Shown here: positions 10,543 to 54,992 of the stretch, piece after piece
Position numbering within the stretch: position 1 is the first letter of the stretch
Layout of the letters: the number at the start of each line of letters is the position of its first letter
Assembly: GCF_000759475.1 (NCBI RefSeq)
Contig: NZ_CP009454.1
Location: forward strand, 3,348,001-3,412,000
DNA length: 64,000 nucleotides
DNA from: Pantoea rwandensis
Lineage (GTDB): Bacteria > Pseudomonadota > Gammaproteobacteria > Enterobacterales > Enterobacteriaceae
Direction of reading: 5' to 3'
The notes under the pieces: model-generated
Database searches by the model: none
What the model saw: the letters and a program-made list of their open reading frames with translations, nothing else
Told to the model about the DNA's origin: nothing
Position numbers and translations under genes: made by a program

Positions 10543-10631
10543 AAATATTTTTACCGCGTTCAGAACTTTCTATTTGGGCCGCAGTCTGAATAAGTGCCAC
10601 TGCTTTTCTTTGAAATCCCCAAATTGTGGAG

Positions 10632-10661
10632 CCCGCCGGTCACTGACTTGCGGGTTTTTTT
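10632..10661 (+). terminator. Probable terminator of ybjL
   Basis: CCCGC (10632-10636) pairs with GCGGG (10650-10654) and is followed by seven T residues. It lies 90 bp past the ybjL stop. Confidence 0.65.
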
Positions 10662-10744
10662 ATGCCTGCAATTCCTGCCGCTTAAGGTTCTCCTAAGCGT
10701 AAATTGCGACCCTGCCACTCTGGTTTCGCTATTTTAAAATATTC

Positions 10745-20803: not shown

Positions 20804-20903
20804 GGTAACTGAAAACGAGGGGCGCCAAAAGTGGCGACCTGCTCGTCTGTTTAGCAATGGATGATTACGCAGTGCTCATTATTAAAAAGGGCACGATAGT
20901 GGA

Positions 20904-21107
20904 GGCGAGAGCGCCTCTGCTGCTGCAAGGGCTATCCGCAGCGCTGAGGCTTTTACGTTGGGCCAGGAGCCAGTCGCAGGGATGCGACTGGCAGTTCGGG
21001 TTGGCCAGGACGGCCTTACCCGAACGATCCGTCGGCACAATGTGGAAGCCGAAGGCACCGCGTCAGCGGCGCGAGGACCGCCTGGCACCAGCAGAGGTGC
21101 GCTGGCC
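20904..21107. repeat. Structured interspersed element, copy A
   Basis: A 204-bp element in the 417-bp gap (20804-21220) between the chemoreceptor and gsiD. The ends are complementary (20904-20922 with 21089-21107, mostly paired). A hairpin at 20969-20992 has stem GCCAGTCGC/GCGACTGGC and loop AGGGAT. A second at 20995-21024 has stem TTCGGGT/ACCCGAA, an inner GGCC/GGCC and loop AGGAC. The copy at 54602-54808 has the same architecture with different but still complementary stem bases. A 48-bp core (around 20921-20968) is identical in all three copies. I know of no named family for it. Confidence 0.75.
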
Positions 21108-21133: not shown

Positions 21134-21164
21134 AAAAAAAGCTGCCACTTTTAACCGTGGCAGC
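21134..21164 (-). terminator. Rho-independent terminator of gsiABCD
   Basis: GCTGCCAC (21141-21148) and GTGGCAGC (21157-21164) form an 8-bp stem. On the minus strand it is followed by seven T residues. It lies 57 bp beyond the gsiD stop. Confidence 0.85.
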
Positions 21165-21220
21165 CTTTGCGAAAATGACCTCAGCTGACGAACTCGGCCC
21201 CCTAAGGCGTGCAAACGGGA

Positions 21221-22126
21221 TCAGGTCTTTAACTTCGGATCCAACGCATCTCGCAGTCCATCCCCCAACAGATTAAACGCCAACACCGTCAGGAAAATCG
21301 CCAGACTGGGGAAGATCGCCACATGCGGCGCAATCACCATATCGGCCCGCGCTTCATTCAGCATCGCGCCCCACTCCGGCGTGGGCGGCTGTGCGCCCAG
21401 TCCGAGGAACGACAAACTCGCCGCCGTGATGATCGACGTGCCGATACGCATGGTGAAATAGACCACAATTGACGACACGGTACCGGGCAGAATGTGACGC
21501 ATAATAATCGTCCAGTCTGATGCGCCGATGCTGCGGGCTGATTCAATAAAAGTTTGGTGTTTCAGCACCAACGTATTGCCACGCACCAGACGAGCAAAGG
21601 CTGGAATACTGAAAATCGCCACCGCCACAATCACATTGCTCATGCCGCTGCCCATGATCGCCACCACCGCAATCGCCAGCAGAATGCCAGGGAAAGCAAA
21701 CAGCACGTCACAGATACGCATGGTAATGCGATCCCACCAGCCCTCGTAATAACCGGCCAGCAAGCCCAGTAACGTACCTATCAGCGCACCGATCGCCACC
21801 GAGAAAAAACCGGCAATCAGTGAAATACGCGTACCGACCAGTACGCGGCTAAATATGTCACGCCCCAGCGAATCCACACCAAACCAGTGCATCATCGATG
21901 GCCCATCATTCAGCCGGTCGTAGTCAAAATAGTTTTCTGCATCAAACGGGGCAATAAACGGGGCGATAAACGCCACCACAATCAACAGCAGCACAAATAA
22001 GCCCGCCACCATCGCCACATGTTGATGACGAAAGCGGCGCCAGAATTCACGCCACGGCGTACGTACCCGGGTTTCCGTCATCATCGGCATGGTTTTCAAT
22101 GCCGCTGCGCGTCGCCAGTTTTTCAA
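21221..22126 (-). CDS. gsiD: Glutathione ABC transporter permease GsiD
   Basis: A protein of 301 residues (E. coli GsiD 303). It is an inner-membrane permease of the glutathione importer. The family EAA region [22 protein letters not shown] and the end [18 protein letters not shown] match E. coli. I choose the TTG at 22126 because AAGGAG lies six bases upstream and the next residues KNWRRAA align with the E. coli start MRLFNWRRQ; longer ATG frames reach back into gsiC. It starts 10 bp after gsiC. Confidence 0.93.
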
Positions 22127-54457: not shown

Positions 54458-54532
54458 GGCCTAGCACCTCTGATGCTGCAAGGGCTATCCGCAGCGCTGA
54501 GGCTTTTACGTTGGGCCAGGAGATCCACGCAG
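54458..54532. repeat. Structured interspersed element, truncated copy B1
   Basis: 75 bp identical or nearly so to the left part of the full copy at 54602. It carries the left arm TAGCACCTCTG, the 48-bp core and the left arm of the first hairpin (GATCCACGC), then breaks off. It lies 69 bp before the full copy, in direct orientation. The 648-bp gap 54359-55006 contains B1, B2 and the 8-bp tandem repeat and no gene. Confidence 0.7.
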
Positions 54533-54601
54533 AGGGGATTCAAGTCTTCCAGTCTGCTGATGAGCGCAAGTGAATGCTGTTGAAAGGGGCACAATTTTTG
54601 A

Positions 54602-54808
54602 GGCCGTAGCACCTCTGATGCTGCAAGGGCTATCCGCAGCGCTGAGGCTTTTACGTTGGGCCAGGAGATCCACGCAGGGATGCGTGGATCAGTTCGGGGC
54701 CGACCAGGGATGGTCGATCCCCGAACGATCCGTAGGCACGACGTGGAAGCCGAGGGCACCGCGTCAGCGGCGCGAGGACTGCCCGGCGGCAGCAGAGGTG
54801 CTACGGCC
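54602..54808. repeat. Structured interspersed element, full copy B2
   Basis: 207 bp. The ends are perfectly complementary over 16 bp: GGCCGTAGCACCTCTG (54602-54617) with CAGAGGTGCTACGGCC (54793-54808). Hairpin one is GATCCACGC-AGGGAT-GCGTGGATC (54667-54690). Hairpin two is TTCGGGG...CGACC-AGGGAT-GGTCG...CCCCGAA (54693-54725). Compared with copy A at 20904-21107, the stem bases differ but stay paired and the first loop is unchanged. Minus-strand ORFs that read PRAADAVPSAST in both copies are not believed to be genes. Confidence 0.78.
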
Positions 54809-54835: not shown

Positions 54836-54992
54836 AAGCAGTTAAGCAGTTAAGCAGTTAAGCAGTTAAGCAGTTAAGCAGTTAAGCAGTTAAGCAGTTA
54901 AGCAGTTAAGCAGTTAAGCAGTTAAGCAGTTAAGCAGTTCAGCAGTTCAGCAGTTCAGCAGTTCAGCAGTTCAGCAGTTCAGCAGTTCAGCA
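54836..54992. repeat. 8-bp tandem repeat (VNTR)
   Basis: Twelve copies of GTTAAGCA from 54841 to 54936, then seven copies of GTTCAGCA from 54937 to 54992, preceded by a partial unit. The unit changes at one base in a single block switch. It ends 14 bp from the hutH-like stop codon. Length 8 is not a multiple of three, and no reading frame uses it. Confidence 0.93.

Follow-up and report, generated by a model that had tools for sequence, protein, structure and literature searches.

Two structured repeats in the window, by which we mean the whole 64,000-nucleotide stretch analysed here, are decayed members of a family of elements that is real, structurally constrained and mobile. The account that we favor, at a probability of roughly three in four, is that this family is an IS4-mobilised MITE carrying modules of a known RNA family, TwoAYGGAY. 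Among open-access papers we found none that connects MITEs with TwoAYGGAY or with CsrA sites, or terminators with IS4, and we did not find this combination of RNA family, carrier and target niche described. According to the mechanism we propose, a non-autonomous element (a MITE of ~560 bp) would be moved in trans by an IS4-family DDE transposase and would insert into the hairpin of a Rho-independent terminator, duplicating 10–14 bp and splitting the host terminator. Its cargo would consist of two divergent TwoAYGGAY modules (B and A) and a terminator of its own. Read-through from the upstream (left-hand) gene would include module A in that gene's transcript as a 3'-UTR, the C-ANGGAN-G hairpins of the module would bind CsrA as a decoy and/or as a mark on the transcript, and the element's own terminator would restore termination.

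The copies are present at 20904–21107 and 54602–54808, the coordinates given in the original prediction, which also correctly described two hairpins whose stems differ between the copies under unchanged GGA loops, and five or six GGA motifs per copy (5 in copy 1, 6 in copy 2). The identical core that it put at 48 bp is real and measures 49 bp (20921–20969 = 54619–54667). Its remark that no named family was known to it proved wrong, as both copies are Rfam TwoAYGGAY (RF01731), a member of the CsrA-binding clan. With permissive filters they score 44.3 and 44.1 bits (gathering cut-off 43); a default Rfam scan of the whole window reported neither. The only default match in the window is the RybB sRNA gene at 10599–10663. 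In the window's own genome, five of the eight RF01731 matches at E ≤ 0.01 reach the cut-off, copy 1 not being among them. The A and B modules of six loci score 41–48 bits. The loops of the window copies (AGGGAT/AGGAC and AGGGAT/AGGGAT) contain GGA and are not strict AYGGAY. In the portions of the literature available to us, TwoAYGGAY is a table row graded as "probably an RNA, probably not cis-regulatory" and reported from human gut, gamma-Proteobacteria and Clostridiales (PMC2864571), CsrA binding was proposed for it in 2014 with validation said to be in progress (PMC4333381), and two covarying pairs have been added (PMC11701678); these portions contain no tested role for the family.

Selection acts on the fold of the family. 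Copies 1 and 2 fold at -129 and -141.9 kcal/mol (z -8.5 and -10.9), and for neither was any of 200 shuffles as good. We assessed covariation in 29 copies picked from the collected loci (8 from the window's own genome and 21 from relatives), using a 35-pair structure taken from the helices of the original prediction. Paired cells made up 94.0% of the total as against 78.2% in shuffles, both sides had changed in 24 of the 35 pairs (12.8 in shuffles), and the covariation score was 0.389 (0.113 in shuffles); none of these three values was reached in 500 shuffles. Sliding the partner columns by 1–3 lowered pairing to 34–47%, and the enclosing helix (columns 65–67/130–132) was 100% paired. The argument that paired changes between the two copies mean a kept structure is thus borne out in the larger alignment. 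With regard to the loops, GGA was found in hairpin 1 of all 29 A copies and in hairpin 2 of 27, and the hairpin-1 loop had the form C-ANGGAN-G, the CsrA/RsmE site consensus, in 23. In B modules an automatic and error-prone hairpin finder placed GGA in hairpin 1 of 41/45 and in hairpin 2 of 34/45; four of the 45 had ACGAT, without GGA, in hairpin 2.

The mobile unit is longer than the 205 bp originally predicted. The printed flanks of the copies show that many copies of module A are the right half of a larger unit, which in full, as found elsewhere in the genus, is ~560 bp long. Between its two inverted repeats (TAATGCYNGTCAGTTAAG) stand, in order, module B (minus strand), a short middle, module A (plus strand) and a terminator hairpin. 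Beyond the original prediction, searching the genome of the window (4.33 Mb, one contig) with a copy as query returned 28 matches, 8 of them near full length. Matches occurred in 19 of 60 genomes searched (own included), all of a single genus represented by 36 genomes, and none was found in the 24 genomes of other genera. All 44 plasmid records that matched the Pantoea element were from Pantoea, and we did not find the element in phages.

The family transposes, as its inverted repeats, 10–14 bp duplications and empty alleles demonstrate. Plasmids of P. agglomerans hold filled, empty and partly deleted alleles at two sites. At the first, between an ABC-transporter gene and a glutathione S-transferase gene, the empty site is the terminator CCCCGGAAGATTTTCCGGGGTTTTT and the element of the filled allele is flanked by two copies of GGAAGATTTTCC; at the second, the duplicated sequence is CGCCAGCGGC, which also lies in a terminator hairpin. 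Eleven plasmid alleles chosen for their differing lengths comprised three empty, seven partly deleted and one with another insert; given the partial loss of the element in seven of the eleven, individual copies seem not to be essential. A P. agglomerans plasmid (L143, at the L133 site) carries a different insert in the same terminator, and this insert contains the hairpin GGGCC-AGGGAT-GGCCC.

To describe the target we used 18 distinct core-bearing sites, drawn from the collected loci, with both inverted repeats (≤3 mismatches each). Duplications of 10–14 bp were found at 12 of these, all from relatives or plasmids, and none at the other six. When terminator-like was defined as a hairpin of -8 kcal/mol or better plus a run of T or A, 10 of the 12 restored sites were terminator-like as compared with 2.35% of 2000 random positions; for a hairpin alone the figures were 11 of 12 and 25.4%.

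Features of the window copies and their surroundings. Positions are those of the window; "by eye" marks assignments made by visual comparison.
Feature	Positions	Strand	Basis or remark
Degenerate left terminal inverted repeat, copy 1	20839..20855	+	CTGCTCGTCTGTTTAGC versus consensus TAATGCTCGTCAGTTAAGC; by eye against complete elements
Segment upstream of module A, TTGTTNAAAAAGGGCAC-like	20879..20903	+	By eye, in most of 25 printed copies; not in L039, L055
Module A of copy 1, TwoAYGGAY RNA, closed by a long terminal stem	20904..21107	+	RF01731, 44.3 bits (L001:1521-1671); covariation
Hairpin 1, copy 1, loop C-AGGGAT-G	20969..20992	+	
Hairpin 2, copy 1, loop CAGGACG	20995..21024	+	
Terminator-like hairpin of the element, facing a convergent ABC-transporter permease gene (stop at 21221)	21136..21168	-	
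Degenerate right terminal inverted repeat, copy 1	21184..21197	-	By eye against L190 and complete elements
Truncated extra copy, 5' part of module A	54463..54522	+	Matches query 7-66 at 97% identity; upstream of copy 2 by 145 bp; beyond the original prediction
Upstream segment of copy 2, counterpart of 20879-20903	54577..54601	+	
Module A of copy 2, TwoAYGGAY RNA	54602..54808	+	RF01731, 44.1 bits (L006:1555-1626)
Hairpin 1, copy 2, loop C-AGGGAT-G	54667..54690	+	
Hairpin 2, copy 2, loop C-AGGGAT-G	54693..54725	+	
Array of 19 tandem GCAGTT(A/C)A units, immediately 3' of copy 2	54838..54989	.	

Within the window both copies are reduced (see table). Copy 1, whose neighbors by sequence are a methyl-accepting chemotaxis gene and the convergent permease gene, has degenerate repeats and no clean target duplication, and lacks module B, the normal place of which is downstream of the left inverted repeat. 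Copy 2 likewise lacks module B and has no recognisable inverted repeats. The terminator-like hairpin of copy 1 is the one such site on the minus strand, where shuffles give 1.0, and a similar hairpin stands downstream of module A in many other copies (by eye). The 5' end of module A has partial copies in tandem elsewhere as well, two at the L007 site (145-bp period) and two at the L002 site (76-bp period). The GCAGTT(A/C)A unit of the array beside copy 2 resembles CAGTTAAG of the IS4-type inverted repeat, a resemblance only; the orthologous site holds a GCAGTTCA array in one relative (G017) and about three GCACTTCA-like units in another (G021). Four Pantoea intergenic loci (L191, L193, L195 and L205) contain GGTCGCCATNNATGGCGACC-like hairpins that are similar to the copy 1 target and may belong to a further repeat family.

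The sites of both copies are variably occupied. Among 12 relatives, the copy 1 site holds the element in one (G017), where both partners of one hairpin-1 pair have changed (A-T to C-G), and lacks it in seven with the same chemotaxis neighbor; of the remaining four, one shows only 265 bp, with the element absent, and three have a different neighbor. Nine relatives were compared at the copy 2 site after two weak matches were dropped: three have module A (in one case at a contig edge), one has a B-type element and the other five have neither. Persistence at orthologous sites in related species with maintained stems is what one would expect if the copies were a domesticated CsrB/RsmZ-like family, that is, dispersed host sRNA genes that titrate CsrA and were spread by old duplication and not by transposition. 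Membership of the CsrA-binding clan and the proposal, in the part of PMC4333381 available to us, that TwoAYGGAY is a CsrA-binding sRNA also favor this explanation; however, the inverted repeats, 10–14 bp duplications and empty alleles demonstrate transposition, scans of one complete element and of the copy 1 surroundings showed no sigma-70 promoter, and we consider dispersed sRNA genes improbable. Gene conversion could be the source of the stems kept at orthologous sites.

Evidence on the mover of the MITE came from the window's own genome. The inverted repeat ATGCYNGTCAGTTAAG has 10 exact matches there, and eight of these are the right ends of 1.42-kb insertion sequences; a backward control pattern had no match in 12 genomes. 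These eight insertion sequences have a full transposase open frame (L178, L181, L184–L189), their right-end repeat being TAATGCTTGTCAGTTAAG. The transposase is of the IS4 family (NF033592, 1.6e-85; Nterm_IS4 and DDE_Tnp_1), and among the best five matches the resident insertion sequence is ~65% identical to E. coli DNA annotated as IS4-like. By eye, all eight copies lie within terminator-like hairpins with 10–13 bp duplications, and a script scored eight of eight sites as terminator-like (seven from the own genome and one from G021). Because eight IS4-family elements share the right-end repeat and all sit in terminator-like hairpins, we read the repeat as an IS4-mobilised MITE. That it is a mobile MITE of IS4 type is very likely, and we infer from the shared ends that an IS4-family transposase mobilises it in trans. 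Fresh elements and intact transposases were, however, found in different genomes. The window's genome, which has intact transposases, contains not one of the 12 clean duplications, and this slightly lowers the odds of the MITE reading and of the account as a whole. An Nterm_IS4 match was absent from 9 of 12 Pantoea genomes, including the element-rich G018, G009, G026, G004, G022 and G035; the mover in such genomes is extinct, different or missed.

The original prediction named two possibilities, a functional RNA and mobile DNA that depends on hairpins. Covariation shows the structure to be conserved and the family is mobile, but the family is not hairpin-dependent in the IS200/REP sense, as it has IS4-type inverted repeats and 10–14 bp duplications and the genome has no Y1 transposase match. 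A multi-copy, palindromic, intergenic repeat would suit a hairpin element of the REP/REPIN or IS200/IS605 type with a Y1 (RAYT) transposase as its mover, and beside one related non-Pantoea element (L116) lies a putative Y1-like ORF, judged by its motifs. Against such an origin, which we hold to be scarcely credible, the target duplications and the inverted repeats both belong to the DDE/IS4 type, and a Y1_Tnp match was absent from 6 of 12 genomes, including the window's own and G172, which has 30 TwoAYGGAY copies. For Pantoea we reject the origin, no match to Y1_Tnp (PF01797) having been found in the window's genome.

It is distinctly unlikely, too, that the fold acts as DNA, as a cruciform or single-strand hairpin in transposition or replication, with the GGA loops incidental. 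Such a role would fit the long paired ends, a plasmid allele (L145) that lost module B between its paired ends, and the strong folding of both strands of copy 1 (-129.0 versus -113.6 kcal/mol). IS4-type ends, though, should suffice for a DDE transposase, none of the genome's RF01731 matches is at the eight places of the insertion sequences, and stem sequence turns over as the GGA loop is kept. G-U pairs also outnumber A-C mismatches on the predicted strand (35 versus 8 cells; 13 versus 5 pairs, p 0.08, hence not significant by pair), an excess that is only suggestive of RNA rather than DNA and of this as the sense strand. Altogether we think it likely that the repeat specifies a functional RNA on this strand.

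How a structured RNA of the IS4-type MITE would be expressed and what would bind it can be addressed with less assurance. Scans of two stretches, one complete element and the surroundings of copy 1 (including 20879–20903), found no sigma-70 promoter. A sigma-54-like promoter (GGCAC-N5-TTGA) seen by eye upstream of module A was rejected, as its -12 part is not constant. Since an insertion leaves the host terminator split and the scans revealed no internal sigma-70 promoter, we propose that module A is read through as a 3'-UTR. A co-oriented ORF lies upstream in 21 of 28 A copies, so that an obligate 3'-UTR position is not universal. With a simple ORF caller, and with three contig-edge copies excluded, 18 of the 28 lie between convergent ORFs, seven have both ORFs on the minus strand (among them L002 and L007, whose upstream ORFs are short) and three have both on the plus strand. 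The link to CsrA drawn in the original prediction is strengthened by the C-ANGGAN-G form of the hairpin-1 loops and by the clan of RF01731; binding itself we infer. The gene csrA is present in eight of eight genomes tested. A CsrA role is plausible from these motifs, and we put CsrA as the partner of module A at slightly better than even odds; a 3'-UTR or decoy mechanism would be possible though not probable.

TwoAYGGAY extends well beyond Pantoea. Of 295 genomes of the order, 95 have an RF01731 match (66 of them over the cut-off); these belong to 28 of 99 genera, and none of 14 control genomes has one. A deep search of nine genomes yielded 109 copies, from 2 to 30 per genome, which formed 39 neighboring pairs no more than 5 kb apart (14 divergent, 24 tandem and 1 convergent). 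For cargo we took 12 loci with a divergent pair and outer modules more than 1 kb apart (the innermost pair of L106 is 0.8 kb apart) and scanned 27 proteins, missing two of nine ORFs at L362, one of two at L358, one of four at L360 and a few small or overlapping ORFs. PADLOC matches at 1e-10 or better were found at eight of the 12 loci (L101, L102, L104, L105, L116, L359, L360 and L361): PDC-S49; an NsnA-like GmrSD, whose neighbor is SIR2-like below the Pfam cut-off; PDC-S31 twice; PDC-M11 with a SLATT gene; Ppl; PtuA with PDC-M01B; and PDC-S20. There was no such match at L106, L107, L358 or L362, the last of which carries an integrase and an IS91-type transposase, nor at L103, where the modules are 0.6 kb apart and which is outside the 12-locus count. 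In a rough control that was not matched for accessory regions (the longest ORF of each round-number region in G144, G172 and G247, three of the seven source genomes), 2 of 20 regions matched, one of them TniQ; the comparison gives a Fisher p of 0.0015 by locus and 0.025 by protein (11/27 versus 2/20). Of two intervals between tandem modules, one (L363) has no Pfam match in two of three ORFs and the other (L365) encodes a DcaP porin.

The borders of these cassettes were also inspected. Around non-Pantoea pairs, no clear target duplication was found in 12 loci. Terminator targeting outside Pantoea was considered and rejected at the rplI site of the genus of G144, where the cassette stands past an intact terminator, and for this reason we claim such targeting for Pantoea only. 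By eye, 2 of the 21 loci that have 430 bp or more of sequence downstream hold the rplI-site cassette, a count that excludes one 46-bp locus and L354; in G251 a module lies ~1.1 kb downstream at this site. The non-Pantoea module (L101–L113) is often followed by palindromic, terminator-like GGTTACTTTTCTTT...AAAGAAAAGTAAC and CGCC...GGCG (by eye). A search of genome contigs with a KAP cargo protein gave 46 stretches that fit the pattern, none of them a relative; a loose DNA pattern gave at least 80 contig loci, and of eight checked one contained TwoAYGGAY (Psychromonas sp. SA13A). Searches of plasmids and of phages did not turn up the non-Pantoea module. The divergent pairs around defense-like genes suggest a cassette border in other genera, and no description of the carrier or of such borders was found in open-access papers. 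A broader proposal, drawn from these arrangements of sequence, would make TwoAYGGAY a widespread mobile CsrA-binding border that plugs selfish modules and their cargo into the host Csr circuit, as terminator-targeting IS4 MITEs in Pantoea and, in other genera of the order, as divergent pairs bounding small, often anti-phage cassettes whose mRNAs would gain CsrA-binding 3' ends; we regard it as doubtful.

For the Pantoea MITE, the findings make TwoAYGGAY testable by supplying a named transposase family, exact ends, a terminator-hairpin target and empty sites. Should the hairpins bind CsrA, a transcript would gain CsrA sites with each insertion and the cellular CsrA balance would shift, and transposition would be a route to rewiring a global regulator.

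Several known systems share parts of this organization. Bacterial MITEs and small repeats such as ERIC, BOX, RUP and Correia are short, multi-copy and intergenic, with inverted ends, and are moved in trans by resident insertion sequences. The Pantoea element has these traits in common with them and differs in its payload, a covarying RNA pair with CsrA-type loops, and in its targets, which are terminator hairpins. With IS4 of Escherichia coli and its family the resident insertion sequence shares the NF033592 transposase and 10–13 bp target duplications, whereas the Pantoea repeat carries RNA modules and lacks a transposase; our evidence of a preference for terminators concerns only the Pantoea insertion sequence and its MITE. 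The CsrB, CsrC, RsmX, RsmY and RsmZ sRNAs have several GGA hairpins suited to the CsrA dimer, and module A has GGA hairpins in common with them. A scan of six loci with these five families gave nothing above cut-off (only weak sub-cut-off RsmZ and CsrC matches), and in contrast to the CsrB/RsmZ class the Pantoea modules are dispersed and mobile, have two strong hairpins each and come without a promoter that we could find. TwoAYGGAY itself, finally, shares two adjacent GGA-loop hairpins inside a short helix. The available portions of its published descriptions (PMC2864571, PMC4333381) are silent on mobility and terminators; unlike the RNA as published, the Pantoea form has ANGGAN loops in place of strict AYGGAY and sits as a divergent A/B pair inside a transposable element.
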